This document shows positions 34,501 to 64,000 of a stretch of DNA of 64,000 nucleotides, piece by piece. Below the pieces are notes generated by a model. The model was not told the DNA's origin, ran no database searches, and saw nothing but the letters and a program-made list of their open reading frames with translations. This DNA is from Haliclona indistincta (Eukaryota; Porifera; Demospongiae; Haplosclerida; Chalinidae): contig OZ024784.1 of NCBI GenBank assembly GCA_964017065.1, positions 18,904,905 through 18,968,904 of the forward strand, written 5' to 3'. How positions within the stretch are numbered: position 1 is the first letter of the stretch; every line of letters starts with the position of its first letter. Position numbers and translations under genes: made by a program.

Positions 34501-37177
34501 GTGTGGTTGGTAATCCCACCACTCCGCCATTCATGTACAACAAGGAAGAGTGGGACCTTGGTCCTCTACCATATGCCACTGAAGAGGCACGCTCAGTAGC
34601 TCACTTGCTCCAGACCACTCCACTGCTTCATCAAGACGCCACCAAGAATGCTGTACTGGCCAAGATCAGTCAGGCAAAGGTGATCCACCTAGCCACTCAT
34701 GGATCTGCTGGAGGTGGATTCCTTGTGTTAGGATCATCCTCTCATAACTTTGCCACAGTAACCAAACACACAGTGGAGGATCCTAGCGCTCTACTACTAC
34801 ATGCCTCTGAGCTGGAGTCTCTGGACATTAGTGCTGCTCTAGTGGTGTTGAGCTCGTGTGATAGTGGTCGAGGTGTGATCAGAGGAGATGATATACAAGG
34901 CATGGCTCGATCCTTCCTACTGGCAGGAGCCAGAGCAGTCCTCACTTCACTATGGAAAGCTCCTGATGAGAGTGCCAGCTTCTTCATGCTATACTTTTAT
35001 CGATATCTTCTTGATGGCCATAAGGCCAGTGTGGCACTACAGAAAACCTCACACAGTATCCGATGCTTTGTTAAATATTCTAACTTTGTTCACTGGAGTG
35101 GCCACCAGCTGACAGGCCAGGACGTCATGGTAACACAGACACTTTCCTCTGAAGATAAAGCTGTTCGTGACTCACTAGGGAACAAGTCCACCACTACCTT
35201 TCCTCGTTTTGATTTACTCCATAGTCTTACTGATGCTTTGAATAGTGACAATGTCCAGGTAACTCAGAATGTTATACAAGTACTACATTAATTATTTATT
35301 TATTTTATAATTATACAGTTGTTGTATGGTCCTCCTGGTGTTGATATGGTGGAGCCAGTGACTGACTTCATCTGCAAGAACTACTCACACTATCCAGGAG
35401 GCATTGTGTGGCTACATGGTAGTCACAGCATTGACGTTCTTCAGGTCAGTCACGTGCTGTTTTGATATAATGATTCATTGGTCTATTTTACAGATGATGT
35501 CAGAGACTTCAGATCGTGTTCTTGTCATATTAGATGGATGTGATGAAATACATCCAACTTGTCCCAAATCTTCTAATATTGATATAATCATTATCTCTAA
35601 TGGTGTTGCTGATGATATGAGGTGTCATGTCAGGAGCTCTCTCAATCGACCAGTATCAGTACATGCGGTCAAGCCACTATCAGAGCTACATGCCACACAG
35701 CGACTAGTCTATTCTGTCCAGAGCAGCTTCCATCTTCCTCCCAGTACAGCAGACCAGTCATCATTCCAACAGCTAGCTCACCTCACTATGGGCTCTCCTA
35801 TACTGATCAGGATGGTACAGTATCTGCTCCACCACAACATGAAGCACAGTAGCTCACCCAGTGAGGGATTACTGTACACCGTACACAGCATTGAAGAGAT
35901 GATGGAGGATGATGATGAACTAGCCACTGGTAGACTAGCTGTGATCAGTGCAGTGTGTGACACACTCTCCACTGCAGCTCAGAGACTGCTTCACTGCCTA
36001 TCATGTCTTAATGGACTACCAGTATCACTAGAGTATATTGAGATCATCGCTAATATGATCCAACCACGGCAACAACTAACACTAGTAACAGAGCTGAGAC
36101 AGGCTGCCGTCCTCCTAGGATACCCTTCACGTGTTGTGATAGGACCAACTAGTGACAAGACTCCATTACTGTATGTTCCAGTGAGTATTGCTGAGAGTAT
36201 CTGGAGTGAGAGTAGCTTACACAACAAGGCACTGAGTCTACTAGTCATCAAGAATGCTATAATGAAGGGACCTAGCTACTGTGATACCGCAGTGCGTCAT
36301 CAAGTACTGAAGAGCTGGGAGACAGCAATGATCAGTGACTCACAGGATCATGACACTGCTACTATACTGCTCTTGAAGGAACACTTTATTGAACTGATAG
36401 AGAGACATCAGCCAGCTGACACCACTCATGGCCCAATGCACTCTCTGGCACCTGCTCTGACACGATCTGACCTGTTGAAAAAACTAGAGCCTGTTGGTCA
36501 CTCTGACAACCCCTCTAGTAGTGATATACACCTGTTCTCAGTGAGTTACCCATGAATGACCCAGATTTGTGTTTTGCACCAGTCTTGCACTTAATCTTTT
36601 ACGTACATCATACAAGTACTTTTCCAAATCACTTTCCCACAGTCATGATGTTTCTTTCACCTGCAGGATACTTCTGGGTGCTCTTCTGCCTTGACTCACC
36701 AAGCGTCCATTGAACTGCCTCGTATGAATCACCAAGCGTCCATTGAACAGCCTCGTATGAATCACCCAGCGTCCATTGAACAGCCTCGTATGAATTACCA
36801 AGTGTCCATTGAACAGCCTCGTATGAATCACCAAGCGTCCATTGAACAGCCTTGTATGAATCACCAAGTGTCCATTGAACCGCTTACTCATCAAGTATCC
36901 ACAGAAAAGTCTGCTGAGACATCTAACATACTACATAATATTGAAATCAATTCAAAATTATCTGACATCAAGATTCGTGAGTTTGTGTAACAATAGTTAA
37001 TATTACCTGTTTCATTTATTATTCATACATAATGTAGGTATTTTAATATGGAAACATTATAATCCTGATCTTATTATTGGCAGTAAGTTTACTAATAATT
37101 ATTGTAACACTACACAATAATTACAAAATAAAATAAATTCTTTAGAAGCAATCAATGATGTACCAGTTGCTGAATAG
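31545..37177 (+). CDS. TPR-CHAT protease with NB-ARC-like C-terminal region (gene A)
   Basis: Exons by my reading: 31545-35258, 35319-35444, 35494-36540, 36667-36976, 37038-37082, 37146-37177, all GT-AG and in phase. 31545 follows TTACATTCAG, a splice acceptor, so the first exon is missing. Exon 1 encodes an unrecognised N-terminus (to about 300), tetratricopeptide repeats (about 380-690, e.g. NLGNLFHSVGDHTAAVPHY, AYNNLGTYYQAVGDLDKA), and a CHAT caspase-like domain (about 820-1200). Its catalytic His is in HLATHGS (about 1052) and Cys in LSSCDSG (about 1105). Exons 2-3 encode GPPGVDM, VLVILDGCDEI (Walker B-like) and VKPLSELHATQRL, resembling an NB-ARC/STAND ATPase whose P-loop lacks GK[ST]. 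Exon 4 has six 11-residue repeats. CHAT proteases are cysteine proteases; TPRs usually sense partners. A role in immunity or cell death is inferred. Confidence 0.85.
36692..36890 (+). repeat. 33 bp coding tandem repeat in gene A exon 4
   Basis: Six in-frame copies of HQASIEQPRMN-type units with slight variation. The corresponding exon of gene B (52861-52793) has only one, followed by a stop, so the array expanded in A or contracted in B. Confidence 0.85.
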
Positions 37178-38151: not shown

Positions 38152-40168
38152 ATGGCTGAAGGTTAATTTCGTTATCCTGGTCGTATGTCGATAGTACTAG
38201 TGTCTATTGCAATATAACTAGTTGTGTGTGTGTTTCTTCTCTACAGCAGACGATACTCAGCGCTATCAGTGCGGTTACTGTGGCTGTGATATTACTCTAC
38301 GCCTCAAGTGTGCCGAGTGTAGCGACCTGGACCTGTGCCTACATGTTAGTAGTACAGCTGCTATAGATGCCGTGTGTATGCTTCATAGTTCATCACGTTA
38401 CAGTGCTTCTCATCTGGAGCTCGAGGAGGTACACACAAACCAGACCACGCCTACCAGCTCATAGTAAGCCCCGCCCATCAGTATCATGATATAGTGCTTG
38501 TCTCACTCTCCCTCTAGGATGAGGGTAGCTTTCCTCTACTGACAGATGACTGGGGAGCCATTGAAGAAGTGTTACTACTAGACGCTGTAGAGCAAGATGG
38601 GTTTGGTAACTGGGAAGATATAGCAGCTCATGTTGTCACCAAGACAGCTAGAGGTGTGTGTGCGTGTGTGTGTGAGTGTGTGTGTGTGTGCGTGCGTGTG
38701 CATGTCTGTGTGTGCGTGAGTGTTAATTAAATCATTAATATTCTCTACTTTAGAGAGCAGAGACCATTATAATGATGTCTATGTTAATGGAACTATTGGA
38801 GAGAGTAAGTCACTATAACTATACAATACTACTATCACTATCGTCACTAAGGTTTGTTACCACAAGACCATCATTGCAAGGCACTGGATAGAGGAGGAGG
38901 AGACAGTAAGCACCTTGTATTAGTACATTTGTTCACCTCTCTCTTTCTCTCCCTTCCTCCCTCCTCCCTTCCTCCCTCCTCTCTCCCTCCTTCCTCCCTC
39001 CCTCCCTCCTCCCTCCTTCCTCCCTCCGCTCTCCCTTCCTCCCTCCGCTCTCCCTTCCTCCCTCCGCTCTCCCTTCCTCCCTCCGCTCTCCCTTCCTCCC
39101 TCCCTCCCTCCCTCCCTCCCTTCCTCTCCTTCTCCAGTCCCACCATCTCCTCCATCATTTGTTCCTATCAAACTGGATCATTCTGAACAACAAGAGCTCT
39201 CTTATCTGCCATTGAGAGATGATTTTGAGAAAGTGAGTTACTTGCAGTAGGCTAGCGACAACACTTACAGACCTCAACTGGAATGCAATAGTAGTGCTAT
39301 GAACTTGTCCAGAGTTTTACTAAAGTTAATCTGCATTAGCAATCTTACTACTTGTGTTCATGTGTAAATCATGTTACTGTAGATCGGGAATTCTCATCTA
39401 TAAAAGTTTTCATCTGTTTAATTTTGTGCTAGCTTTGTTCATAATATAAATGTGTATCGTGTATTGTATGTTGATTTATTTTTTGTTGTAAGAAAAATAT
39501 AGCTAGCCTCGTCCCAAGGCTCCACCCCTCTCATTTATTTTGTTCCGAGAGAGAGCCTGCTCTCTAATCTCACATGACCAAGACAGGTGATTAGTGAACG
39601 TGGGCACAATAGCTCAACATGCTTGCATTCGACATGTGCTTCTAGTACGGACTGCAGCAGCTCACCAGTATGATCGATGTTCTATGTGAAATGGTGCCGA
39701 GGCTTTACAAGCTGCCTAGCTTGCCGATCGTTGGGCACGAAGGCATGTATGCGCTAAGTGTCAACCCATGCAGCTACTCGTTCCGAGCTCGGATCAACCA
39801 AGCACTAGAGAGATCACTGTCGAACATACCCTCCTCCCTAGCTAGTTCCTGACAGCAGCTCCAGTAGTACGACTGCACACTCATACACTGTTCATCGTGC
39901 GGTTTGCCTACCCACGCTCATTAAATTTTTGCACTTTTAGGCTGCGCTCACGTGAGATTAGTGACCAGACTCTCTGACGGAATAGAGAGCTAAGGAAAAT
40001 ATTGTAATGCCAAAAATGTCCTATTCTATTCACTTGGTGTTCTGATGTATTCAGGAATATAATAATGATGCTGAGAAGGTGATCAGTGGTATTACTATGA
40101 GCCATGATGATGATGAAGATATTGAGACTGGTGAGTGTACGCGGGTGTGTGTGTGTGTGTGTGCAAGC

Positions 40169-40221
<53 letters not shown>

Positions 40222-43200
40222 TGTATATAGCACTAAAGCTAGCCCATGTCAACATGTCTGTCTGTCTGTATGTAGCACTAAAGCTAGCCCATGTCAACAT
40301 GTCTGTCTGTATATAGCACTAAAGCTAGCCCATGTCAACATGTCTGTCTGTATGTAGCACTAAAGCTAGCCCATGTCAACATGTCTGTCTGTATGTAGCA
40401 CTAAAGCTAGCCCATGTCAACATGTCTGTCTGTATGTAGCTCTAAATCTAGCCCATGTCAACATGTCTGTCTGTATGTAGCACTAAAGCTAGCCCATGTC
40501 AACATGTCTGTCTGTATGTAGCACTAAAGCTAGCCCATGTCAACATGTCTGTCTGTATGTAGCACTAAAGCTAGCCCATGTCAACATGTCTGTCTGTATG
40601 TAGCACTAAAGCTAGCCCATGTCAACATGTCTGTCTGTATGTAGCTCTAAATCTAGCCCATGTCAACATGTCTGTCTGTATGTAGCACTAAAGCTAGCCC
40701 ATGTCAACATGTCTGTCTGTATGTAGCACTAAAGCTAGCCCATGTCAACATGTCTGTCTGTATGTAGCACTAAAGCTAGCCCATGTCAACATGTCTGTCT
40801 GTATACTAAAGCTAGCCCATGTCAACATGTCTGTCTGTATGTAGCACTAAAGCTAGCCCATGTCAACATGTCTGTCTGTATGTAGCACTAAAGCTAGCCC
40901 ATGTCAACATGTCTGTCTGTATATAGCACTAAAGCTAGCCCATGTCAACATGTCTGTCTGTATGTAGCACTAAAGCTAGCCCATGTCAACATGTCTGTCT
41001 GTATGTAGCACTAAAGCTAGCCCATGTCAACATGTCTGTCTGTATGTAGCACTAAAGCTAGCCCATGTCAACATGTCTGTCTGTATGTAGCACTAAAGCT
41101 AGCCCATGTCAACATGTCTGTCTGTATGTAGCTCTAAATCTAGCCCATGTCAACATGTCTGTCTGTATGTAGCACTAAAGCTAGCCCATGTCAACATGTC
41201 TGTCTGTATGTAGCACTAAAGCTAGCCCATGTCAACATGTCTGTCTGTATGTAGCACTAAAGGTAGCCCATGTCAACATGTCTGTCTGTATACTAAAGCT
41301 AGCCCATGTCAACATGTCTGTCTGTATGTAGCACTAAAGCTAGCCCATGTCAACATGTCTGTCTGTATGTAGCACTAAAGCTAGCCCATGTCAACATGTC
41401 TGTCTGTATATAGCACTAAAGCTAGCCCATGTCAACATGTCTGTCTGTATGTAGCACTAAAGCTAGTCCATGTCAACATGTCTGTCTGTATGTAGCACTA
41501 AAGCTAGTCCATGTCAACATGTCTGTCTGTATGTAGCACTAAAGCTAGCCCATGTCAACATGTCTGTCTGTATATAGCACTAAAGCTAGCCCATGTCAAC
41601 ATGTCTGTATGTAGCACTAAAGCTAGCCCATGTCAACATGTCTGTCTGTATATAGCACTAAAGCTAGCCCATGTCAACATGTCTGTCTGTATGTAGCACT
41701 AAAGCTAGCCCATGTCAACATGTCTGTCTGTATATAGCACTAAAGCTAGCCCATGTCAACATGTCTGTATATAGCACTAAAGCTAGCCCATGTCAACATG
41801 TCTGTATGTAGCACTAAAGCTAGCCCATGTCAACATGTCTGTATGTAGCACTAAAGCTAGCCCATGTCAACATGTCTGTATATAGCATTATATCCCACTG
41901 AAGCCATACTTCAAAGGATATTGCAGTGCTATAAATGTGATATAGCACGCTCAGTGCATATAAATCCCTTTGATGTTTGATATATGCACTGTGGTTATCA
42001 AAATAATTCTATTCAGTAACCCACTAATTGTTCATCAGGAAATGAATATTTGGAATAAATACAGGTATATATGGCGTATTGAATATGGGAAACATGGGAT
42101 AAACATTGTATAACCATTGTCAACAGTGAGACTGAAACTTTCATGTTCATTCAGTCATTATTTATGATTGTTCGCCAGCTGGTTCATTTCCAAAGTGGGA
42201 TCCATGTGGCATCGGAGGATAATACAGCGCAGCATAAGGATCAGGAACTGGAGGGAAGCACATCTGTGGCATTGCAGAAGAGTAGACATTCACGGTGCAG
42301 TTGTTGTATTGTGTCGCTGGTTGGCAAGATGCACTGGTGACTTTCGAACTGGTTTCTTCTTGCTTGCTATTACTTGGACCTTCTTCGAAAGTCTCCTTTT
42401 CTCCGCTCAAAATCTTGGAAACCTGTAGATTCTGCTTGTCAGTTACCCTTTCATACAGTCGAAGAGCATCTAGCGAACGATGACCAGTTCTAGCTTGGAT
42501 TATTCGCTCTGGTACACCTGCATCAAAAAGTGAGCTTGCTCCAGCTACTCGCAAACTGTGATTTGTTTTTTTTCCCGGTACACCTGCATCAGAGCACATA
42601 CTTGGCACCATTTTTGCTAGTTGGTTACGACCGACAGGCACTGCTGCGAACCATGGATGTGTAGAATCCCTAGGTTTTGATGGCAAAGGTCGACAATAGA
42701 AGATGTCCTTTTCAATTGCCGCCTTGGGTAATTTGCTGATGTAAAGGTCGAGGAGAAATACATGACACCTACAGCCAGCACTTGGATTAGCAACGATAGT
42801 CACACTTTTATGTTCGAGCCTCAACTCAGACAGACCTCCTTTCCGGTTCTTCGATGAATTTTCGCTGTACACATACTTGTCTGGATTTTTACTTCTTTCC
42901 AGCTGAGACAACTGCAAATCTCTGTGTTCTTGGCATCCCCTTAAACAAAAGCATTTCCCATTGTAGAAAAAAACGGAACGAAGAAGACCTAAAGGGGTAT
43001 CAATGTTGAGCGTTTCCGTTTCCCACAGGAGGTCTTCATCACTGGTTGTAATAGGCTCAGTGTGCTTTGAATTCGCTCCAACTCCTGATGCTCGTAGAGA
43101 CTTGAACAAGTTGTCTAGCAATGCAGTGAATTCAGAAAACATGGGATCTTTCCTAGCCAGAAAATTGGGATACGACGGATTCTGACCTCTCATGTGTCTC

Positions 43201-46200
43201 AGGAATCCCGTAAGTAGAACGTAAAGTGTCTTTGGCGGATAATTTTCTCCATTCTTTGTCCTCGTTTCCGTGGTAAAGACGCGCAGCCATTGGTTTAAAA
43301 TCGGAGGAGAACACGTGGCAGAAAGAAACTCTTCAGGGCAGGGGCTTTCTTTATTTCTCTGATTGTAGTCGTGAAACCATTCTGTGATGTTTTTAACTGC
43401 CCATCGAGTAGCCGTGGCGGTGTTTTTCGGTACCGACGGTTTAGACAGTTCTTCAATGGCGTCATTAGAAGCAGTACAAAATCGGCGCTGACCTTTCAAC
43501 GAGAGCGAGAGTCTTCTTCTCTTGCTCGCTGGTTCTTTGCCTTTCTCCATTCACATTTAGTACACTCAATGACTTGTAGATTCGACGATGGAGACGGATT
43601 TTCAACAAGCCACCTGGAGACAGTTTCAAGCGCTCTAGCTGCACACACGGGAACACGTGGTGCTTGCGCATGCGTACATACACACACCACCGGAAGTATG
43701 GCTTCATGCGAGATAAATTCGTTATATCACGTGCACTCGTGCAATATTGATTTATATGACCTCGCCCTCGGGCTCGGTCATATAAATCCAATATAGCACT
43801 CGTGCTGTGATATAACATATACCTAAAGCTAGCCCATGTCAACATGTCTGTCTGATAGCACTAAAGCTAGTCCATGTCAACATGTTTGTCTGTATATAGC
43901 ACTAAAGCTAGCCCATGTCAACATGTCTGTCTGTATATAGCACTAAAGCTAGCCCATGTCAACATGTCTGTATATAGCACTAAAGCTAGCCCATGTCAAC
44001 ATGTCTGTATGTAGCACTAAAGTTAGCCCATGTCAACATGTCTGTCTGTATATAGCACTAAAGCTAGCCCATGTCAACATGTCTGTCTGTATGTAGCACT
44101 AAAGCTAGCCCATGTCAACATGTCTGTCTGTATATAGCACTAAAGCTAGCCCATGTCAACATGTCTGTCTGTATGTAGCACTAAAGCTAGCCCATGTCAA
44201 CATGTCTGTCTGTATATAGCACTAAAGCTAGCCCATGTCAACATGTCTGTCTGTATGTAGCACTAAAGCTAGCCCATGTCAACATGTCTGTCTGTATATA
44301 GCACTAAAGCTAGCCCATGTCAACATGTCTGTATATAGCACTAAAGCTAGCCCATGTCAACATGTCTGTCTGTATATAGCACTAAAGCTAGCCCATGTCA
44401 ACATGTCTGTCTGTATGTAGCACTAAAGCTAGTCCATGTCAACATGTCTGTCTGTATGTAGCACTAAAGCTAGCCCATGTCAACATGTCTGTCTGTATGT
44501 AGCACTAAAGCTAGCCCATGTCAACATGTCTGTATGTAGCACTAAAGCTAGCCCATGTCAACATGTCTGTCTGTATATAGCACTAAAGCTAGCCCATGTC
44601 AACATGTCTGTCTGTATGTAGCACTAAAGCTAGCCCATGTCAACATGTCTGTCTGTATATAGCACTAAAGCTAGCCCATGTCAACATGTCTGTATATAGC
44701 ACTAAAGCTAGCCCATGTCAACATGTCTGTATGTAGCACTAAAGCTAGCCCATGTCAACATGTCTGTATGTAGCACTAAAGCTAGCCCATGTCAACATGT
44801 CTGTATATAGCATTATATCCCACTGAAGCCATACTTCAAAGGATATTGCAGTGCTATAAATGTGATATAGCACGCTCAGTGCATATAAATCCCTTTGATG
44901 TTTGATATATGCACTGTGGTTATCAAAATAATTCTATTCAGTAACCCACTAATTGTTCATCAGGAAATGAATATTTGGAATAAATACAGGTATATATGGC
45001 GTATTGAATATGGGAAACATGGGATAAACATTGTATAACCATTGTCAACAGTGAGACTGAAACTTTCATGTTCATTCAGTCATTATTTATGATTGTTCGC
45101 CAGCTGGTTCATTTCCAAAGTGGGATCCATGTGGCATCGGAGGATAATACAGCGCAGCATAAGGATCAGGAACTGGAGGGAAGCACATCTGTGGCATTGC
45201 AGAAGAGTAGACATTCACGGTGCAGTTGTTGTATTGTGTCGCTGGTTGGCAAGATGCACTGGTGACTTTCGAACTGGTTTCTTCTTGCTTGCTATTACTT
45301 GGACCTTCTTCGAAAGTCTCCTTTTCTCCGCTCAAAATCTTGGAAACCTGTAGATTCTGCTTGTCAGTTACCCTTTCATACAGTCGAAGAGCATCTAGCG
45401 AACGATGACCAGTTCTAGCTTGGATTATTCGCTCTGGTACACCTGCATCAAAAAGTGAGCTTGCTCCAGCTACTCGCAAACTGTGATTTGTTTTTTTTCC
45501 CGGTACACCTGCATCAGAGCACATACTTGGCACCATTTTTGCTAGTTGGTTACGACCGACAGGCACTGCTGCGAACCATGGATGTGTAGAATCCCTAGGT
45601 TTTGATGGCAAAGGTCGACAATAGAAGATGTCCTTTTCAATTGCCGCCTTGGGTAATTTGCTGATGTAAAGGTCGAGGAGAAATACATGACACCTACAGC
45701 CAGCACTTGGATTAGCAACGATAGTCACACTTTTATGTTCGAGCCTCAACTCAGACAGACCTCCTTTCCGGTTCTTCGATGAATTTTCGCTGTACACATA
45801 CTTGTCTGGATTTTTACTTCTTTCCAGCTGAGACAACTGCAAATCTCTGTGTTCTTGGCATCCCCTTAAACAAAAGCATTTCCCATTGTAGAAAAAAACG
45901 GAACGAAGAAGACCTAAAGGGGTATCAATGTTGAGCGTTTCCGTTTCCCACAGGAGGTCTTCATCACTGGTTGTAATAGGCTCAGTGTGCTTTGAATTCG
46001 CTCCAACTCCTGATGCTCGTAGAGACTTGAACAAGTTGTCTAGCAATGCAGTGAATTCAGAAAACATGGGATCTTTCCTAGCCAGAAAATTGGGATACGA
46101 CGGATTCTGACCTCTCATGTGTCTCAGGAATCCCGTAAGTAGAACGTAAAGTGTCTTTGGCGGATAATTTTCTCCATTCTTTGTCCTCGTTTCCGTGGTA

Positions 46201-49200
46201 AAGACGCGCAGCCATTGGTTTAAAATCGGAGGAGAACACGTGGCAGAAAGAAACTCTTCAGGGCAGGGGCTTTCTTTATTTCTCTGATTGTAGTCGTGAA
46301 ACCATTCTGTGATGTTTTTAACTGCCCATCGAGTAGCCGTGGCGGTGTTTTTCGGTACCGACGGTTTAGACAGTTCTTCAATGGCGTCATTAGAAGCAGT
46401 ACAAAATCGGCGCTGACCTTTCAACGAGAGCGAGAGTCTTCTTCTCTTGCTCGCTGGTTCTTTGCCTTTCTCCATTCACATTTAGTACACTCAATGACTT
46501 GTAGATTCGACGATGGAGACGGATTTTCAACAAGCCACCTGGAGACAGTTTCAAGCGCTCTAGCTGCACACACGGGAACACATGGTGCTTGCGCATGCGT
46601 ACATACACACACCACCGGAAGTATGGCTTCATGCGAGATAAATTCGTTATATCACGTGCACTCGTGCAATATTGATTTATATGACCTCGCCCTCGGGCTC
46701 GGTCATATAAATCCAATATAGCACTCGTGCTGTGATATAACATATACCTAAAGCTAGCCCATGTCAACATGTCTGTCTGATAGCACTAAAGCTAGTCCAT
46801 GTCAACATGTTTGTCTGTATATAGCACTAAAGCTAGCCCATGTCAACATGTCTGTCTGTATATAGCACTAAAGCTAGCCCATGTCAACATGTCTGTATAT
46901 AGCACTAAAGCTAGCCCATGTCAACATGTCTGTATGTAGCACTAAAGTTAGCCCATGTCAACATGTCTGTCTGTATATAGCACTAAAGCTAGCCCATGTC
47001 AACATGTCTGTCTGTATGTAGCACTAAAGCTAGCCCATGTCAACATGTCTGTCTGTATATAGCACTAAAGCTAGCCCATGTCAACATGTCTGTCTGTATG
47101 TAGCACTAAAGCTAGCCCATGTCAACATGTCTGTCTGTATATAGCACTAAAGCTAGCCCATGTCAACATGTCTGTCTGTATGTAGCACTAAAGCTAGCCC
47201 ATGTCAACATGTCTGTCTGTATATAGCACTAAAGCTAGCCCATGTCAACATGTCTGTATATAGCACTAAAGCTAGCCCATGTCAACATGTCTGTCTGTAT
47301 ATAGCACTAAAGCTAGCCCATGTCAACATGTCTGTCTGTATGTAGCACTAAAGCTAGTCCATGTCAACATGTCTGTCTGTATGTAGCACTAAAGCTAGCC
47401 CATGTCAACATGTCTGTCTGTATGTAGCACTAAAGCTAGCCCATGTCAACATGTCTGTATGTAGCACTAAAGCTAGCCCATGTCAACATGTCTGTCTGTA
47501 TATAGCACTAAAGCTAGCCCATGTCAACATGTCTGTCTGTATGTAGCACTAAAGCTAGCCCATGTCAACATGTCTGTCTGTATATAGCACTAAAGCTAGC
47601 CCATGTCAACATGTCTGTATATAGCACTAAAGCTAGCCCATGTCAACATGTCTGTATGTAGCACTAAAGCTAGCCCATGTCAACATGTCTGTATGTAGCA
47701 CTAAAGCTAGCCCATGTCAACATGTCTGTATATAGCATTATATCCCACTGAAGCCATACTTCAAAGGATATTGCAGTGCTATAAATGTGATATAGCACGC
47801 TCAGTGCATATAAATCCCTTTGATGTTTGATATATGCACTGTGGTTATCAAAATAATTCTATTCAGTAACCCACTAATTGTTCATCAGGAAATGAATATT
47901 TGGAATAAATACAGGTATATATGGCGTATTGAATATGGGAAACATGGGATAAACATTGTATAACCATTGTCAACAGTGAGACTGAAACTTTCATGTTCAT
48001 TCAGTCATTATTTATGATTGTTCGCCAGCTGGTTCATTTCCAAAGTGGGATCCATGTGGCATCGGAGGATAATACAGCGCAGCATAAGGATCAGGAACTG
48101 GAGGGAAGCACATCTGTGGCATTGCAGAAGAGTAGACATTCACGGTGCAGTTGTTGTATTGTGTCGCTGGTTGGCAAGATGCACTGGTGACTTTCGAACT
48201 GGTTTCTTCTTGCTTGCTATTACTTGGACCTTCTTCGAAAGTCTCCTTTTCTCCGCTCAAAATCTTGGAAACCTGTAGATTCTGCTTGTCAGTTACCCTT
48301 TCATACAGTCGAAGAGCATCTAGCGAACGATGACCAGTTCTAGCTTGGATTATTCGCTCTGGTACACCTGCATCAAAAAGTGAGCTTGCTCCAGCTACTC
48401 GCAAACTGTGATTTGTTTTTTTTCCCGGTACACCTGCATCAGAGCACATACTTGGCACCATTTTTGCTAGTTGGTTACGACCGACAGGCACTGCTGCGAA
48501 CCATGGATGTGTAGAATCCCTAGGTTTTGATGGCAAAGGTCGACAATAGAAGATGTCCTTTTCAATTGCCGCCTTGGGTAATTTGCTGATGTAAAGGTCG
48601 AGGAGAAATACATGACACCTACAGCCAGCACTTGGATTAGCAACGATAGTCACACTTTTATGTTCGAGCCTCAACTCAGACAGACCTCCTTTCCGGTTCT
48701 TCGATGAATTTTCGCTGTACACATACTTGTCTGGATTTTTACTTCTTTCCAGCTGAGACAACTGCAAATCTCTGTGTTCTTGGCATCCCCTTAAACAAAA
48801 GCATTTCCCATTGTAGAAAAAAACGGAACGAAGAAGACCTAAAGGGGTATCAATGTTGAGCGTTTCCGTTTCCCACAGGAGGTCTTCATCACTGGTTGTA
48901 ATAGGCTCAGTGTGCTTTGAATTCGCTCCAACTCCTGATGCTCGTAGAGACTTGAACAAGTTGTCTAGCAATGCAGTGAATTCAGAAAACATGGGATCTT
49001 TCCTAGCCAGAAAATTGGGATACGACGGATTCTGACCTCTCATGTGTCTCAGGAATCCCGTAAGTAGAACGTAAAGTGTCTTTGGCGGATAATTTTCTCC
49101 ATTCTTTGTCCTCGTTTCCGTGGTAAAGACGCGCAGCCATTGGTTTAAAATCGGAGGAGAACACGTGGCAGAAAGAAACTCTTCAGGGCAGGGGCTTTCT

Positions 49201-52200
49201 TTATTTCTCTGATTGTAGTCGTGAAACCATTCTGTGATGTTTTTAACTGCCCATCGAGTAGCCGTGGCGGTGTTTTTCGGTACCGACGGTTTAGACAGTT
49301 CTTCAATGGCGTCATTAGAAGCAGTACAAAATCGGCGCTGACCTTTCAACGAGAGCGAGAGTCTTCTTCTCTTGCTCGCTGGTTCTTTGCCTTTCTCCAT
49401 TCACATTTAGTACACTCAATGACTTGTAGATTCGACGATGGAGACGGATTTTCAACAAGCCACCTGGAGACAGTTTCAAGCGCTCTAGCTGCACACACGG
49501 GAACACGTGGTGCTTGCGCATGCGTACATACACACACCACCGGAAGTATGGCTTCATGCGAGATAAATTCGTTATATCACGTGCACTCGTGCAATATTGA
49601 TTTATATGACCTCGCCCTCGGGCTCGGTCATATAAATCCAATATAGCACTCGTGCTGTGATATAACATATACCTAAAGCTAGCCCATGTCAACATGTCTG
49701 TCTGATAGCACTAAAGCTAGTCCATGTCAACATGTTTGTCTGTATATAGCACTAAAGCTAGCCCATGTCAACATGTCTGTCTGTATATAGCACTAAAGCT
49801 AGCCCATGTCAACATGTCTGTATATAGCACTAAAGCTAGCCCATGTCAACATGTCTGTATGTAGCACTAAAGTTAGCCCATGTCAACATGTCTGTCTGTA
49901 TATAGCACTAAAGCTAGCCCATGTCAACATGTCTGTCTGTATGTAGCACTAAAGCTAGCCCATGTCAACATGTCTGTCTGTATATAGCACTAAAGCTAGC
50001 CCATGTCAACATGTCTGTCTGTATGTAGCACTAAAGCTAGCCCATGTCAACATGTCTGTCTGTATATAGCACTAAAGCTAGCCCATGTCAACATGTCTGT
50101 CTGTATGTAGCACTAAAGCTAGCCCATGTCAACATGTCTGTCTGTATATAGCACTAAAGCTAGCCCATGTCAACATGTCTGTATATAGCACTAAAGCTAG
50201 CCCATGTCAACATGTCTGTCTGTATATAGCACTAAAGCTAGCCCATGTCAACATGTCTGTCTGTATATAGCACTAAAGCTAGCCCATGTCAACATGTCTG
50301 TCTGTATATAGCACTAAAGCTAGCCCATGTCAACATGTCTGTCTGTATGTAGCACTAAAGCTAGCCCATGTCAACATGTCTGTCTGTATATAGCACTAAA
50401 GCTAGCCCATGTCAACATGTCTGTCTGTATATAGCACTAAAGCTAGCCCATGTCAACATGTCTGTCTGTATATAGCACTAAAGCTAGCCCATGTCAACAT
50501 GTCTGTCTGTATATAGCACTAAAGCTAGCCCATGTCAACATGTCTGTCTGTATGTAGCACTAAAGCTAGCCCATGTCAACATGTCTGTATATAGCACTAA
50601 AGCTAGCCCATGTCAACATGTCTGTCTGTATATAGCACTAAAGCTAGCCCATGTCAACATGTCTGTCTGTATATAGCACTAAAGCTAGCCCATGTCAACA
50701 TGTCTGTCTGTATATAGCACTAAAGCTAGCCCATGTCAACATGTCTGTCTGTATATAGCACTAAAGCTAGCCCATGTCAACATGTCTGTCTGTATATAGC
50801 ACTAAAGCTAGCCCATGTCAACATGTCTGTCTGTATGTAGCACTAAAGCTAGCCCATGTCAACATGTCTGTATATAGCACTAAAGCTAGTCCATGTCAAC
50901 ATGTCTGTCTGTATATAGCACTAAAGCTAGCCCATGTCAACATGTCTGTCTGTATATAGCACTAAAGCTAGCCCATGTCAACATGTCTGTATATAGCACT
51001 AAAGCTAGCCCATGTCAACATGTCTGTCTGTATATAGCACTAAAGCTAGCCCATGTCAACATGTCTGTATATAGCACTAAAGCTAGCCCATGTCAACATG
51101 TCTGTCTGTATATAGCACTAAAGCTAGCCCATGTCAACATGTCTGTCTGTATAATTATAGCACTAAAGCTAGCCCATGTCAACATGTCTGTCTGTATATA
51201 GCACTAAAGCTAGCCCATGTCAACATGTCTGTCTGTATATAGCACTAAAGCTAGCCCATGTCAACATGTACACTAGAAAACTTGTAGAAAGAGAGAAGAG
51301 GAAAAGGTGAGTGGGTGTGGTTGGTGTCTTCACTGTGTTGTGGGTGTGTCCTAAAGTATTGCTAAGCAACATGGCCTGATAGGAGGTAAACAAAGGATCA
51401 GTGGTGAGTGAATCATGGTAGCATTATAGAGTACTAGTATGATAATGTGTGTACAGCATTCAAGAGAAAGTTCTGTAAGGAAGAAAGGTATGTGCTCACA
51501 GACATTGACAAGAGGCTTTCTCACTGTGTTAGAGAGCTGAGGAATAAGTTGAGACCACTAGCTAGACTACTAAATGCTGAGGAATATGAGAAGCTAGTGA
51601 GCTCTATGAAACGTGAGTGACTGTGTGATCAGTAGTATGTGTGCTGTATTATAGCTGTCTCTTGTATTGGTAGGAGAGAGGCAGTTGAAGCAAAGGATCA
51701 AAGATCTCGCTATGTATCGGAGACACGGCATCACTAAGAGTGATGGTAAGGGTGACACGTGTGATCCTCTCTTATGGTGCCTCCTCTCTCAGATTGTGGT
51801 GAGTTCGATATGTTACGACAAGAACAAGAGAAAATGAAAGAGAACAAGGTAGACACATGTGTTGCAATAAAATTATCTTCCTCTGAATCTTTTTCTCCCT
51901 TCAAATTTCAGGAAATGTTTGGTCTCAGGTAATTCGCACACTTTTCAGTTACTGTCATGCATCCTGCCTTCCTTCTCTCTCTTTGTCATTATTTTTACCT
52001 CCTTCACTTCTCTGTATAGTGATGAACCAGTGTCACCAGGTGAGATACTCTAGTAGTAACAAGTAACTGCAGGTATCTCAGTGTTGTACGTGTGTGTAGA
52101 CATTGAGCTGACCTTACCACCAGAGATAGCCCTACTGTCATCATCAGAGAGGAAGGTACCATAACCTGACGATCCGACCACACCCACTTACCCACTCACC

Positions 52201-52792: not shown

Positions 52793-55700
52793 TTAAGCAT
52801 TCATACGAGGCTGTTCAATGGACGCTTGGTGAGTCAAGGCAGAAGAGCACCCAGAAGTATCCTGTAGGTGAAAGAAACATCATGACTGTGGGAAAGTGAT
52901 TTGGAAAGTACTTGTATGATGTACGTAAAAAATAAGTGCAAGACTGGTGCAAAATACAAATCTGGGTCATTCATTGTGTGCTGTAACTCACTGAGAATGG
53001 GTGTATATCACTACTAGAGGGGTTGTCCGAGTGACCAACAGGCTCTAGTTGTTTCGACAGGTCAGATCGTGTCAGAGCAGGTGCCAGAGAGTGCATTGGG
53101 CCATAAGTGGTGTCAGCTGGCTGATGCTTCTCTATCAGTTCAATAAAGTGTTCCTTCAAGAGCAGTATAGTAGCAGTGTCATGATCCTGTGAGTCACTGA
53201 TCATTGCTGTCTCCTGCAGCTCTTCAGTACTTGATGACACACTGCGGTATCACAGTAGCTAGGTCCCTTCATTATAGCATTCTTGATGACTAGTAGACTC
53301 AGTGCCTTGTTGTGTAAGCTACTCTCACTCCAGATGCTCTCAGCAACACTCACTGGAACATACAGTAATGGAGTCTTGTCACTAGTTGGTCCTATCACAA
53401 CACGTGAAGGGTATCCTAGGAAGACGGCAGCCTGTCTGAGCTCTGTTACTAGTGTCGGTTGGTGCCGTGGTTGGATCATATTAGCAATGATCTCAATATA
53501 CTCTAGTGATACTGGTAGTCCATTAAGACATGATAGGCAGTGAAGCAGTCTCTGAGCTGCAGTGGAGAGTGTGCCACACACTGCACTGATCACAGCTAGT
53601 CTACTAGTGGCTAATTCATCATCATCCTCCATCATCTCTTCAATGCTGTGTACGGTGTACAGTAATCCCTCACTGGGTGAGCTACTGTGCTTCATGTTGT
53701 GGTGGAGTAGATACTGCACCATCCTGATCAGTATAGGAGAGCCCATAGTGAGGTGAGCTAGCTGTTGGAATGATGACTGGTCTGCTGTACTAGGAGGAAG
53801 ATGGAAGCTGCTCTGGACAGAATAGACTAGTCGCTGTGTGGCATGTAGCTCTGATAGTGGCTTGACTTCATGTACTGTCAATGGTCGATTGAGAGAGCTC
53901 CTGACATGACGCCTCATATCATCAGCAACGTCATGATTAGAGATAATGATTACATCGACATTAGAAGATTTGGGACAAGTTGGAGGTATTTCATCACAAC
54001 CATCCAGAATGATAAGAGCACGATCTGAGGACTCTGACATCATCTGTAAAATAGACCAATAATCATTACATAAAAAACAGCACGTGACTGACCTGAAGAG
54101 GCTCACTGCTATTATCATTGCTATGTAGCCACACAATGCCTCCAGGATAGTGTGAGTAGTTACTGCAGATGAAGTCAGTCACTGGCTCCACCATATCAAC
54201 ACCAGGAGGGCCACACAGCAACTGTATAAATTAAATTAATTATTATTAAGTTATGTTGCATGGGCATTAGTAATTATCATACCTGAACATCATTTAGTGA
54301 TCTACCATTCAAAGAATCAGTAAGACAATGAAGTAAATCAAAGCGAGAAAAGGCGGTGAAGCCTGTACCTAGAGAGACACGAACATCCTTTTCCTCAGAG
54401 GAGAGCGTATGTGTTACCATGATGTCCTGGCCTGTCAGCTGGTGGCCACTCCAGTGAACAAAGTTAGAATACTTAACAAAGCATCGAATGCTGTGTGAGG
54501 TTTTCTGTAGCGCCTCACTGGCCTTGTAGCCGTCAAGAAGATATCGATAAAAAAATAGCATAAAAAAACTGGCACTCTCATCAGGAGCTTTCCATAGTGA
54601 AGTGAGGACTGCTCTTGCTCCTGCCAGTAGAAAGGATCGAGCTATGCCTTGTATATCGTCTCCTCTGATCACACCTCGACCACTATCACACGAGCTCAAC
54701 ACTACTAGAGCAGTGGGAATATCCAAAGCTTCAACCTCAGCAGCATTTAGTAGCAGTGTTCCAGGATTCTCCACTGTGTGTCTTGTTATTGTCGCAATGT
54801 TATGAGAGGATGACCCCAACACAAGGAATCCACCACCAGCAGATCCACGAGTGGCTAGGTGTATCACCTTGGCCTTCTTGATCTTGGCCAGTACAGCATT
54901 CTTGGTGGCGTCTTGGTGAAGCAGTGGAGTGGTCTGGAGCATGTGAGCTACTGAGCGTGCCTCTTCAGTGGCATATGGTAGAGAAACAAGGTCCCACTCT
55001 TCCTTGTTGTACATGAATGGTGGAGTGGTGGGATTACCAACCACACACATGTCCTTACTGTCTAATGGAACCTGCACAGCTACAGGTGGCATCTGAGACA
55101 TGACACCAAGAGTGAGGAGAGAAGGTGAGTACACTATAGAGTGGCTGTCACCAAGGAAGCACTGTCTCTTAGTGTCATACAGTGCTGAGAAGGGAAGGAG
55201 CTTAGTGTAGCTATCAGGTACAAGCACCATTCTAGATCCACTGCATCCCATCATCTCTAGGATCCTCAGGAGTGGCTTGCCTATCAGGTCGAACAGTTTG
55301 GCTGCTGGAGACTCATCAGATATTGTCTGGTCCTCTAGTCCACCATATAGCTGTAGACCACCGGTCAGCATCTCACTAAGACTGTATCGTATGTAGTGAT
55401 CAAAGGTCTTTCCATCAAACATTGTCTCATCTGGTCTCTGCTCGAATGAAGTCATTTTGACCTCCTCACCATCCCATACTAGCATGCACCCACACAAGCA
55501 GTCTAGTGCCAGTGTATGATAACACAACTACTGGAACATTTGGTGTCTTGAGATGTTTTACTATAGACGAGATGCTGTCTGATTGAAGAGGAGTGTTGAG
55601 GGCAGATCCAATGCAACTAGTTTTGCTGTTCAGTAATTCCTCAAGTGTTCTGGCCCGGCATTGTTCAGCATATACAAGAGCTCTGTTGTGGTCACCAATA

Positions 55701-58700: not shown

Positions 58701-59512
58701 TCAGAAGGAGGCAAAGCACTGCTGTGAGGTATATTCACAAATGATGTGGCAGATTCAGAAGAAGGGGAAGCATTGTTTGGAGGTATATTCACAAATGATG
58801 TGGCAGATTCAGAAGGAGGTGAAGCATTGCTGGGAGGTATTTTCACAAATGATGTGGCAGATTCAGAAGGAGTTGAAGCATTGTTTGGAGGTATATTCAC
58901 AAATGATGTGGCAGATTCAGAAGGAGGTGAAGCATTGTTGGGAGGTATATTCATAGATGAAGTGGCAGATTCAGAAGGAGGCAAAGCATTGCTGGGAGGT
59001 ATATTCATAGACGAAGTGGCTGTGCTAGTTTCGTAAGGCACTGCAAAAGACGGAGAACAAAATTGAGAAGGAGCTCTTTCACTAATTGTAGAGTACATAC
59101 TTGAGAATTTTTTTGTCATCAGATGCTGCTTAGTATCAAGTACAATTAGATAAAGAACAGATTTCTCGTGCCGAGATAGACTGAAGTGATATAACTTTGT
59201 AGGTGAAGGTACATATCGGGTGATGGTCAGTAGCTTTCTGCAAAAACTGAGATAGCCACTGGATGCTAATATACTAGCCATAACATAAGGATGCTTGGAG
59301 AAAATTGTCTCGTAGTAGTGGTTAGGATATTGAAAATCGGCAATGATGTCAGAATCACCGCGCTTCTTGAGCTGGGCCACGACAGCGGAGCGGACGGCAC
59401 TCTGGGCTGGTTTGTCGTCTTGGAATACATTGCTCAGAACTCTCGACGGATCTCGACGTCCGTCAATATCCTTGAAGATGTTAGTATTGACGTTGAGCTT
59501 CATCTTCCACAT
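52793..59512 (-). pseudogene. TPR-CHAT-NB-ARC-like paralogue with frameshifts (gene B)
   Basis: Exons correspond to gene A: 59512-54283, 54221-54093, 54043-52992, 52861-52793. Order: a unique N-terminus (MWKMKLNVNTNIF), eight 18-residue repeats (SFVNIPPNNASPPSES type, 58618-59035), a TPR block (about 58090-57240), a linker, a second TPR block (about 56760-55880), CHAT and NB-ARC-like regions. Relative to A it has 4 extra bases in GTGCATGCTAG (about 55483-55488), which break the frame at the start of CHAT, and 2 extra bases at about 53214-53219. The catalytic His of HLATHGS is Arg (HLATRGS, 54847-54849); Cys in LSSCDSG remains. Start 59512 is chosen as the first ATG; upstream codons are open. 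It is a pseudogene unless the indels are sequence errors, and in any case probably protease-dead. Confidence 0.82.
58618..59035 (-). repeat. 54 bp coding tandem repeat in gene B
   Basis: Eight in-frame copies of an 18-residue Pro/Ser/Asn-rich unit (T-S-F-V-N-I-P-P-N-N-A-S-P-P-S-E-S-A). Gene A has nothing similar in the sequenced part. Confidence 0.85.
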
Positions 59513-59663
59513 CACATGACTGTAATACTGTGGAGCTGTTGTGCAGGATAGTATAACTCGATTCTGGTACTCGCTGTGGTACTGGTACGAGGCTGCTGAC
59601 CACACCTATAGTTGGTTCCAATCAGAAGGTTGGTTGTTACTATGACAACAACCCATTGAGAGC
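59513..59663. promoter_or_regulatory. Presumed bidirectional promoter of gene B and coiled-coil gene
   Basis: About 150 bp separate divergent start codons at 59512 (-) and 59664 (+). No TATA box is seen. Conclusion is from gene arrangement only. Confidence 0.5.
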
Positions 59664-62600
59664 ATGTCGGGACAAGATCACTCTTTACCTGAGCTCCCTA
59701 GTAGCCGCGGGCTAACAGAAGGAGAACCAGGAAGGAGACACACATTACCGCCTGCTCTAGACACTAGCAGCAGACAGCAAGTGACCAGCCCTCCTCCTCG
59801 ACTAATGCTCAACAGGACAGCTCCTGTGTTCTTGTCGTCACGAGCACAGTCCAGACGAGTGAGTGAGTATGTGCGCCTATCACGAAGTGAGCTAGAACAC
59901 AAGGAGCAAGCTATGACATCCTTAAGGTAGGTAGCCAGACTCACTACTCCATCACTGCCTTCTCTTTCAACCCAGGAGTGTCAATATATCATTGCAGAGT
60001 AAAGTGAGAGAGCTAGAGGCCCATCAACAGGTTGCTGTAATGGTGAGCTAGATCAACAGCTAGCTGATGATAATACTGGTGTATAGCTGACAGGTGTGTG
60101 CCGCCAGCTAGCCAGCAGTGTGGGTAGTACAGCAGATGATGACATAGCTACTGAAACAATGGCGGACATGCTGACTACGAGAGTGGCTGCTCTAGTCAAG
60201 GAACACAGCCAGACATACACACAGGTGACCAGCCATTAGTGCACTAACACACACACAGGTGACCAGCCATTAGTGCACTAACACACACACAGGTGACCAG
60301 CCATTAGTGCACTAACATACACACAGGTGACCAGCCATTAGTGCACTAACATACACACAGGTGACCAGCCATTAGTGCACTAACATACACACAGGTGACC
60401 AGCCATTAGTGCACTAACATACACACAGGTGACCAGCCATTAGTGCACTAACACACACAGGTGACCAGCCATTAGTGCACTAACACACACAGGTGACCAG
60501 CCATTAGTGCACTAACACACACAGGTGACCAGCCATTAGTGCACTGACACACACAGGTGACCAGCCATTAGTGCACTAACACACACACAGGTGACCAGCC
60601 ATTAGTGCACTAACATACACACAGGTGACCAGCCATTAGTACACTAACACACACACAGGTGACCAGCCATTAGTGCACTAACATACACACAGGTGACCAG
60701 CCATTAGTGCACTAACACACACAGGTGACCAGCCATTAGTGCACTAACACACACAGGTGACCAGCCATTAGTGCACTAACACACACACAGGTGACCAGCC
60801 ATTAGTGCACTAACATACACACAGGTGACCAGCCATTAGTACACTAACACACACACAGGTGACCAGCCATTAGTGCACTAACATACACACAGGTGACCAG
60901 CCATTAGTGCACTAACACACACAGGAGACCAGCCATTAGTGCACTAACACACACACAGGTGACCAGCCATTAGTGCACTAACATACACACAGGTGACCAG
61001 CCATTAGTACACTAACACACACACAGGTGACCAGCCATTAGTGCACTAACATACACACACAGGTGACCAGCCATTAGTGCACTAACACACACACAGGTGA
61101 CCAGCCATTAGTGCACTAACATACACACAGGTGACCAGCCATTAGTACACTAACACACACACAGGTGACCAGCCATTAGTACACTAACATACACACAGGT
61201 GACCAGCCATTAGTGCACTAACACACACACAGGTGACCAGCCATTAGTGCACTAACATACACACAGGTGACCAGCCATTAGTACACTAACACACACACAG
61301 GTGACCAGCCATTAGTACACTAACATACACACAGGTGACCAGCCATTAGTGCACTAACATACACACAGGTGACCAGCCATTAGTGCACTAACATACACAC
61401 AGGTGACCAGCCATTAGTACACTAACACACACACAGGTGACCAGCCATTAGTACACTAACATACACACAGGTGACCAGCCATTAGTACACTAACACACAC
61501 ACAGGTGACCAGCCATTAGTACACTAACATACACACAGGTGACCAGCCATTAGTGCACTAACATACACACAGGTGACCAGCCATTAGTGCACTAACATAC
61601 ACACAGGTGACCAGCCATTAGTACACTAACACACACACAGGTGACCAGCCATTAGTACACTAACATACACACAGGTGACCAGCCATTAGTACACTAACAC
61701 ACACACAGGTGACCAGCCATTAGTACACTAACATACACACAGGTGACCAGCCATTAGTGCACTAACATACACACAGGTGACCAGCCATTAGTACACTAAC
61801 ACACACACAGGTGACCAGCCATTAGTACACTAACATACACACAGGTGACCAGCCATTAGTACACTAACATACACACAGGTGACCAGCCATTAGTGCACTA
61901 ACATACACACAGGTGACCAGCCATTAGTGCACTAACACACACACAGGTGACCAGCCATTAGTACACTAACACACACACAGGTGACCAGCCATTAGTGCAC
62001 TAACATACACACAGGTGACCAGCCATTAGTGCACTAACATACACACAGGTGACCAGCCATTAGTGCACTAACATACACACAGGTGACCAGCCATTAGTGC
62101 ACTAACACACACACAGGTGACCAGCCATTAGTGCACTAACACACACAGGTGACCAGCCATTAGTGCACTAACACACACAGGTGACCAGCCATTAGTACAC
62201 TAACACACACACAGGTGACCAGCCATTAGTGCACTAACATACACACAGGTGACCAGCCATTAGTACACTAACACACACACAGGTGACCAGCCATTAGTAC
62301 ACTAACATACACACAGGTGACCAGCCATTAGTGCACTAACACACACACAGGTGACCAGCCATTAGTGCACTAACATACACACAGGTGACCAGCCATTAGT
62401 ACACTAACACACACACAGGTGACCAGCCATTAGTACACTAACATACACACAGGTGACCAGCCATTAGTGCACTAACATACACACAGGTGACCAGCCATTA
62501 GTGCACTAACATACACACAGGTGACCAGCCATTAGTACACTAACACACACACAGGTGACCAGCCATTAGTACACTAACATACACACAGGTGACCAGCCAT

Positions 62601-64000
62601 TAGTACACTAACACACACACAGGTGACCAGCCATTAGTACACTAACATACACACAGGTGACCAGCCATTAGTGCACTAACATACACACAGGTGACCAGCC
62701 ATTAGTGCACTAACATACACACAGGTGACCAGCCATTAGTACACTAACACACACACAGGTGACCAGCCATTAGTACACTAACATACACACAGGTGACCAG
62801 CCATTAGTACACTAACACACACACAGGTGACCAGCCATTAGTACACTAACATACACACAGGTGACCAGCCATTAGTGCACTAACATACACACAGGTGACC
62901 AGCCATTAGTACACTAACACACACACAGGTGACCAGCCATTAGTACACTAACATACACACAGGTGACCAGCCATTAGTACACTAACATACACACAGGTGA
63001 CCAGCCATTAGTGCACTAACATACACACAGGTGACCAGCCATTAGTGCACTAACACACACACAGGTGACCAGCCATTAGTACACTAACACACACACAGGT
63101 GACCAGCCATTAGTGCACTAACATACACACAGGTGACCAGCCATTAGTGCACTAACATACACACAGGTGACCAGCCATTAGTGCACTAACATACACACAG
63201 GTGACCAGCCATTAGTGCACTAACACACACACAGGTGACCAGCCATTAGTACACTAACATACACACAGGTGACCAGCCATTAGTACACTAACACACACAC
63301 AGGTGACCAGCCATTAGTGCACTAACATACACACAGGTGACCAGCCATTAGTGCACTAACATACACACAGGTGACCAGCCATTAGTACACTTCTCACAAT
63401 GCTCTATTATGTTGTTAGCTGTGCAGTGTGAGGGAGGAACTAGAGAGTGTGAGAGGTGAGCTAGCAGCTGCTGAGGTGAAGATGACCAGTGCACAGTCAC
63501 AGCTCAGAGGACTGGAGAGTGTGGTCTCCAGCAAGGAGGCACTCAACCAGCAACTCAAGGTAATAATGAGGACAGATAATCAGTCTGATAGCTGAAGCCA
63601 TCATTAATTTTGTAGCACTTTCAACCTATACACCAAATTTTAATTGTCAACTTGTCATAAGTAATGTGTGGAATAGTGTGTGCTATCTGTGTAGGTCGAG
63701 CTTGAGTCTAGTCAGCAGTCCACAGCCCGATGCACTGCCATGGTGCAGTCACTACGCCAGCAACTGAGCAGTGCTGAGAGGGAGAGAGATACCACCCAAT
63801 CCACACGCCACACCATGCAGACAGAGATAGGCAGACTACAGCAGCAACTCAGAGACACTGTGAGTGATAGTGGGAGGGTGGATGAGTGACAGTGGGAGGG
63901 TGAATGAGTGACAGTGGGAGGGTGAATGAGTGAAAGTGGGAGGGTGGATGAGTGACAGTGGGAGGGTGGATGAGTGACAGTGGGAGGGTGGATGAGTGTC
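59664..64000 (+). CDS. Coiled-coil protein, N-terminal exons (incomplete)
   Basis: Predicted exons: 59664-59928, 59976-60042, 60087-60221, 63420-63558, 63695-63859; the gene runs beyond the window. The first about 65 residues are Ser/Pro/Arg-rich and probably disordered. From VRLSRSELEHKEQAMTSLR on, heptad-rich helices dominate (SLQSKVRELEAHQQ, then REELESVRGELAAAEVKM, then SLRQQLSSAERERD), which is classic coiled coil. I do not recognise the family; a cytoskeletal or ciliary scaffold is possible but not shown. ATG 59664 is the first in the frame. Exon 3 ends TACACACAG at the donor that has been amplified into the next feature. Exon edges are within a few bases. Confidence 0.75.
60222..63400 (+). 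repeat. 34 bp minisatellite made of an exon-end and 5' splice site
   Basis: About 95 units of GTGACCAGCCATTAGTGCAC plus TAACAYACACACAG, 32-36 bp long. The last 12 nt of each unit (ACATACACACAG or ACACACACACAG) copy the last 12 nt of exon 3, and the GTGACC that follows copies its 5' splice site. The array fills almost the whole intron. Variants alternate GTGCACTAACATAC and GTACACTAACACAC in a higher-order pattern. Confidence 0.92.
63860..64000 (+). repeat. 22 bp minisatellite starting at a 5' splice site
   Basis: GTGAGTGATAGTGGGAGGGTGGATGA-type repeats (GATGAGTGACAGTGGGAGGGTG, written in two parts as GATGAGTGACA and GTGGGAGGGTG) begin at the donor after CAGAGACACT and run off the window. Confidence 0.85.

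Follow-up and report, generated by a model that had tools for sequence, protein, structure and literature searches.

A large tandem array across the start of exon 8 in the TADA2B gene of the sponge Haliclona indistincta

The TADA2B locus and its array

We analyzed a stretch of 64,000 nucleotides from the sponge Haliclona indistincta (GenBank assembly GCA_964017065.1, contig OZ024784.1, positions 18,904,905 to 18,968,904 of the forward strand; hereafter, the window). All of the sequence comes from one assembly, with a genome of 144 Mb in 46 contigs; the window's contig (C2) is 19.2 Mb long. The window includes the genes TADA2B and CCDC170. Each of these has a large tandem array in one of its introns, and the array in TADA2B is interrupted by a transposon (Table 1).

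The gene model for TADA2B has 17 exons (including one of just 29 bases, 51357-51385). Joining them gives a single open frame with no internal stop. The predicted protein has matches above the Pfam cut-off to TADA2A-like_3rd, Myb, and the Ada2b C-terminal domain, and a match to ZZ below the cut-off. Among solved structures, it matches five chains, three of which are named Ada2. Its three best protein matches are all from demosponges: Halichondria (53%), Ephydatia (52%), and Amphimedon (52%). (The Halichondria and Amphimedon proteins are named transcriptional adapter 2-beta-like, and the Ephydatia protein is a hypothetical protein.) Around the junction of exons 7 and 8, the residues T-A-LKLAHVNM can be aligned to 12 relatives with no gap where the exons meet, and K204 is invariant. 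An earlier reading of the letters alone (the original prediction) had placed the true start of TADA2B exon 8, coding for LKLAHVNM, at the final copy of a satellite and had described this segment as well conserved. The 417-aa frame, the Ada2 domains, and the alignment bear out both statements. The other introns of TADA2B are 47-277 bp long, apart from intron 6 (822 bp). Intron 7 would measure 100 bp if it ended at the first copy of the acceptor, which is within this range.

The unit of the array joins the intron's 3' end (TGTCTGTCTGTATATAG or ...TATGTAG) to roughly the first 26 bases of exon 8 (CACTAAAGCTAGCCCATGTCAACA). We scanned the plus strand of the whole window for a 23-base core, CTAAAGCTAGCCCATGTCAACAT, and allowed up to 4 mismatches. 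This gave 131 matches, all within 40233-51245, in line with the predicted number of about 130; the core is exact in 116 of them. The nine bases 5' of the core are TATATAGCA in 62 monomers, TATGTAGCA in 57, and something else in 12. Both predicted upstream forms (TATATAG and TATGTAG) occur, but five of the 131 monomers lack the AG. Most of the 130 spacings between cores are 41 bp (95 cases) or 37 bp (25 cases); the others are 38 bp (three), 45 bp (two), 36 bp (two), and 1,972 bp (three). Tandem Repeats Finder (TRF; threshold score 50) recovers the same array blocks and scores them at 1642-2988.

The original prediction treated 40221..51306 as one array and did not mention a transposon. We found four blocks, with 41, 25, 25, and 40 monomers, which are split by three non-array blocks of 1,943 bp, and more than half of the 11-kb stretch is non-array sequence. 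Array blocks 2 and 3 are identical across 982 bp. The array and the element together have a period of 2,925 bp, and this unit of 25 monomers plus one element is present three times. Monomers of the TATATAG type, as in the real exon start, predominate near exon 8, and those of the TATGTAG type predominate in block 1. Blocks 1 and 4 have 81 monomers between them, and we compared the columns of the 63 that lie 41 bp from the preceding one. In 30 of these, the A/G column of TATATAG/TATGTAG differs from the majority; for every other column, the figure is 3 or fewer.

We also compared a 701-base query from the end of the array to the whole genome. It had at least 24 matches, all at the TADA2B locus. 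(This search scores only the best candidates and skips common words, so its counts are lower bounds.) Neither this query nor the core scan of the window found monomer copies outside the TADA2B locus.

The three non-array blocks are nearly the same: the first matches the third exactly, the second has a single base difference, and the 462-aa open reading frame (ORF) is the same in all three copies. Cryptons insert without a target-site duplication. As judged from its flanks, the element starts with TTATATC, ends near CATATAC, and sits within one monomer, with TATAGCA on one side and CTAAAGC on the other. Uninterrupted monomers have these two flanks directly side by side, which means that no target bases were doubled. 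The right end varies among copies: of 7 others that we compared, 4 retain CATATAC. The ORF matches DUF3504 (PF12012, 1.6e-36), QRICH1 (PF25561, 1.6e-7), and phage integrase (PF00589, 1e-6), and DUF3504 is described as derived from animal Crypton recombinases (PMC3212892). Of the R-H-R-Y catalytic residues of tyrosine recombinases, HSLR, GH, and Y align to the integrase IntI4 in a weak match (E 0.017), with the first arginine outside the alignment. Cryptons have a tyrosine-recombinase ORF with a DUF3504-type domain, and the nested element looks as expected of a Crypton-type tyrosine-recombinase transposon. It differs from described Cryptons in being a sponge family, and its position within an array of splice sites is incidental. 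Relatives and fragments of the element occur elsewhere in the genome, including one that is 97% identical over most of its length. Its best match is at 98% in an ENA contig, and it has a 50% match in Amphimedon.

A donor-side array in CCDC170

Another array lies about 9 kb downstream, in CCDC170, and is the mirror image of the TADA2B array in polarity. Its unit, ACATACACACAG/GTGACCAGCCATTAGTGCACTA, is the end of an exon plus the 5' splice site, it includes 93 CAGGTGACCAGCC sites, and the authentic copy is the first one. Intron 3 would be 48 bp without the array. Joining nine exons of CCDC170 (the last four are in the adjoining 5 kb, stretch L029) gives a protein that matches CCDC170 from Geodia barretti at 37% over 94% of its length, and the junction of exons 3 and 4 is ungapped in this comparison.

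Three other observations touch on CCDC170. Donor-adjacent 22-bp repeats (63861-64000 of the window and 1-91 of L029) begin one base inside a CCDC170 intron (GTGAGTGATAGTGGGAGGG...), and the later copies have GATGAG for TGTGAG. By eye, there appears to be a separate minus-strand gene within a CCDC170 intron (L029 1300-2830). And an array of 17.8 copies of a 32-bp unit, in an apparent intron on contig C5 (L040 644-1213), is 77-78% identical to the CCDC170 array over 82-86 bases.

Table 1. Features of the two arrays and their genes (window coordinates; a slash marks an exon/intron boundary)
Feature	Position	Strand	Basis
TADA2B (Ada2b), 17 inferred exons, 417 aa	38152..52661	+	exon joining, Pfam, protein matches
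TADA2B exon 7, end ACTG/gtgagt	40055..40130	+	
TADA2B intron 7, 11,112 bp, nearly all array and three transposon copies	40131..51242	+	
(GT)n microsatellite, adjoining the 5' array edge	40145..40224	+	TRF
Array block 1, 41 monomers	40221..41879	+	TRF and core scan
Crypton-like copy 1, 462-aa ORF 42162-43550 (-), right end approximate	41888..43822	-	
Array block 2, 25 monomers	43823..44804	+	TRF and core scan
Crypton-like copy 2, ORF 45087-46475 (-)	44813..46747	-	
Array block 3, 25 monomers, identical to block 2	46748..47729	+	core scan
Crypton-like copy 3, ORF 48012-49400 (-)	47738..49672	-	
Array block 4, 40 monomers, the last (core 51245) being the authentic acceptor and exon start	49673..51269	+	
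TADA2B exon 8, tatatag/CACTAAAGCTAGCCCATGTCAACATG..., purine-rich tail, donor gtgagt	51243..51306	+	
CCDC170 exon 3, end ACATACACACAG/gtgacc	60087..60224	+	
Donor-type array, exon end ACATACACACAG and donor GTGACCAGCCATTAGTGCACTA, 34-bp unit	60213..63391	+	TRF, 94.0 copies
CCDC170 exon 4	63419..63559	+	

Known repeats at exon/intron boundaries

The original prediction knew of no satellite class of this kind, but such repeats have been described in amphioxus as mirages. In Adh3 and in the globins BflGb6 and BflGb9, minisatellite-like repeats lie across an intron/exon boundary, with the acceptor type in BflGb6 and the donor type in BflGb9, and the AG or GT is kept in many units but not all (PMC3087553). 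Adh3 has units of 10-72 bp and the globins have units of 150-160 bp, and mirages were proposed as a source of new introns (PMC3087553). Troponin C and PGBD5 have been added to the list (PMC3902484). Regular splicing reportedly goes on undisturbed in genes with mirages (PMC3087553, PMC3902484).

We compared the TADA2B array to the defining features of a mirage, namely a unit that spans an exon/intron boundary and an AG or GT that is kept in many units, to which we add an authentic boundary with an intact frame. Here, the unit spans the boundary, the AG is present in 126 of the 131 monomers, and the last monomer (core 51245) is the start of exon 8, with the frame open. Together, the sponge arrays share with the amphioxus mirages the repeat across the boundary, both polarities, and splice signals that are kept in many but not all units. 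There are also differences. The sponge arrays have 131 and about 93 units, as compared to the 3 and 6 given for two haplotypes of BflGb6; the TADA2B array holds a nested transposon that was tripled along with it; and whereas RNA and length polymorphism were studied in amphioxus, the sponge arrays are known from sequence alone.

Human genes offer two parallels. The IFI6 (6-16) gene reportedly has a minisatellite that supplies multiple splice donors in one transcript, according to the title of a 1995 study by Turri; going by that title, it resembles the sponge arrays in its repeated splice sites and differs from the TADA2B array in being on the donor side. CBS has a repeat at exon 13. This 31-bp variable number tandem repeat, c.1444_1467+7(16_21), includes 24 exon and 7 intron bases by its notation and is repeated 16-21 times (PMC2630376). 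The CBS repeat thus also crosses an exon/intron boundary, but it is on the donor side, has fewer units, and has a documented length polymorphism. No sponge mirage was reported in the titles and abstract openings that we found, in a search limited to open-licence literature. The class itself is already described; what is unusual here is the size of the array, the nested transposon, and the pair of arrays of opposite polarity.

Splicing, origin, and alternative explanations

Which of the acceptors is used? With a script, we took each of the 126 AG-bearing copies as the start of exon 8, on the assumption that the exon runs to the exon 8 donor and is followed by the remaining exons. Only the last copy gives the full-length protein. 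The 125 earlier ones all meet a stop, with 13 codons read in 93 of them (the first of these codons is split by the intron) and 17-80 codons in the rest, so the predicted stop after about 12 codons is close to what we found. Because only the last copy gives the full-length protein, and because the junction is ungapped in 12 relatives, we predict, as the original prediction did, that a functional mRNA must use the last acceptor.

As for how it would be selected, we prefer exon definition, because only the true exon has a GTRAGT donor and a purine-rich tail. The last 39 bases of exon 8 are 79% A/G, as compared to 46% purine in the monomer, and its donor (gtgagt) lies 64 bases past the exon start. 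GTRAGT occurs three times in 40231-51242, always within a transposon copy, and the monomers hold none. The last acceptor is most likely chosen since only that one precedes an exon that can be defined by such a tail and donor; a wrong choice would give an early stop and probably nonsense-mediated decay. RNA secondary structure does not seem to be the selector: a 324-nt segment that covers exon 8 and the monomers just before it has no better fold than shuffled sequences (z 0.34, with 63 of 100 shuffles at least as good). A scan for yUnAy branch points in the 60 bases before each of 16 acceptors found none at exon 8 and none at 8 others, and thus does not set exon 8 apart. The exon-derived TGTCAAC, some 20 bases upstream, might be the branch site, but this is only a guess.

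We conclude that the TADA2B array is probably an acceptor-type mirage minisatellite, which arose by a duplication across the boundary of intron 7 and exon 8, grew to 131 copies inside the intron, and was tolerated because the extra copies are spliced out. The make-up of the unit, the number of copies, the authentic outermost copy, the intact frame, the interruption by a transposon, and the mirror-image array nearby can all be read from the assembly. A 37-bp segment (TGTCTGTATATAG/CACTAAAGCTAGCCCATGTCAACA) might have been duplicated, by slippage or by microhomology repair, at the 3' end of the (GT)n tract. (TGT opens the unit and recurs immediately after it, in CAACATGTACAC of the exon.) One extra TGTC would then give the 41-bp form, and unequal exchange would enlarge the array. 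The simplest history for the array and the element is a single insertion of the Crypton-like element into one monomer, after which the whole 2,925-bp unit (25 monomers and the element) would have expanded to three tandem copies. The array would be tolerated because every extra copy is upstream of the true exon start and is lost with the intron.

The original prediction emphasized that an exon boundary, rather than random intron DNA, had been amplified. The unit does span the boundary, but this does not imply a special process. Among random windows in TADA2B, with intron 7 cut back to 100 bp, 31% of those of 37 bp (1,084/3,462) and 35% of those of 41 bp (1,196/3,458) cross an exon/intron boundary. 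For 34-bp windows in the CCDC170 stretch, with intron 3 cut to 48 bp, this is 23% (528/2,327). Such hits are ordinary because the introns are short and dense, and the position of the array is explained by chance. Also, a duplication inside an exon would often be purged by selection, and one across a boundary could be silent. Could some process nevertheless favor exon/intron boundaries as seeds of repeats in this genome? The presence, within about 23 kb, of two large arrays that span boundaries with opposite polarity might suggest so, but given how often random segments cross a boundary, and given two arrays elsewhere that read as intronic, we consider this very improbable. These two are the related 32-bp array on contig C5 and the sole array with at least 10 copies and a period of at least 15 bp in a sample of the genome (15 stretches of 10 kb, which hold 145,000 readable bases, or about 0.1% of the genome).

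That sample had 15 TRF rows when the minimum was set at 15 for the period and 2.5 for the copy number. We considered three arrays as candidates and rejected them as boundary-spanning. A 43-bp array in stretch L035 starts 36 bases after a donor-like gtaagc, and, by our reading, the exon is not included. The 32-bp array in L040 looks purely intronic, by reading without a gene model. A 102-bp array in L030 reads, by eye, as ankyrin-like coding repeats on the other strand.

Several points weigh against our interpretation. The microhomology (TGT) is only 3 bases. We recognized no boundary-spanning arrays in the 145-kb sample, with gene context inspected for two arrays only, which counts against the idea that giant mirages are common here. 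Over about 26 exon bases, the copies hardly differ from the true acceptor, and a rule of the first AG after the branch point could, by itself, pick any of them. That the last acceptor is used is something we deduce from the continuity of the protein. The TATGTAG copies carry GTATGT, a possible donor that a scan for GTRAGT does not count, and there may be internal pseudo-exons that use it. Near the junction, one residue about five positions upstream is missing in all 12 relatives, although we do not ascribe it to the array, because it lies inside exon 7. And the near-identical 2,925-bp units could partly reflect the assembly.

The last of these points can be taken further: the array might be real but shorter, with the array-plus-transposon unit multiplied by the assembler. 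This would account for the identity of array blocks 2 and 3 over 982 bp, of elements 1 and 3, and of element 2 save for one base in 1,943. However, blocks 1 and 4 differ from blocks 2 and 3 in the order and type of their monomers, and hence are not copies of them. The large contigs also argue against such an effect, although all this is still compatible with an extra copy of the unit. Overall, we think an assembly effect is quite improbable. It is also unlikely, in our view, that the array is a decoy or a dial, with some transcripts taking internal acceptors, meeting a stop, and being degraded, so that array length tunes the output of TADA2B. The early stop from 125 of the 126 AG-bearing copies, behind nearly the same acceptor, and the donor-like GTATGT would fit. 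We also count for it that a 2001 study by Lievers, going by its title, reportedly concerns reduced CBS activity. Human CBS alleles vary in the number of their 31-bp boundary units (PMC2630376). On the other hand, amphioxus mirages are said to leave regular splicing unaffected (PMC3087553, PMC3902484), and the monomers have neither the purine-rich tail nor the GTRAGT donor that mark exon 8.

The rest of the window has several other features. TADA2B lies between two oppositely oriented sets of TPR-containing ORFs (31545-36555 and 53201-59605). The left set has a CHAT domain, and the right set is similar by eye. Also by eye, a short flank (36600-36880) has an inverted counterpart near 52800. An ORF of 1,466 aa (14957-19357) has a NACHT domain, and two ORFs at 22689-24945 share stretches with it by eye; these are probably an NLR-like gene cluster. 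At 1980-2640 there is a foldback-like element, with a long inverted repeat (about 2000-2120 and 2480-2620, by eye) around a 60-bp tandem repeat.

Returning to the mirage, a bolder interpretation, which we offer tentatively and doubt as a whole, is that nature has set up a tandem test of about 126 acceptors at this locus: cells would ignore about 125 of them, even though these are nearly identical to the true one through about 26 exon bases, and exon context alone would select. The array would be unstable, as amphioxus mirages are, and would vary the output of TADA2B between cells and individuals. Taken with the CCDC170 array, this would imply that giant mirages of either polarity arise in sponges. 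If RNA confirms the use of the last acceptor, then the locus would separate local acceptor sequence from exon context unusually cleanly, because more than 100 acceptors have almost identical flanks but lie in different downstream contexts. It would also widen the mirage class beyond lancelets to include sponges, with over 20 times the copy number counted for BflGb6, and would be an example of a short intron that grew past 11 kb without damage to the protein.

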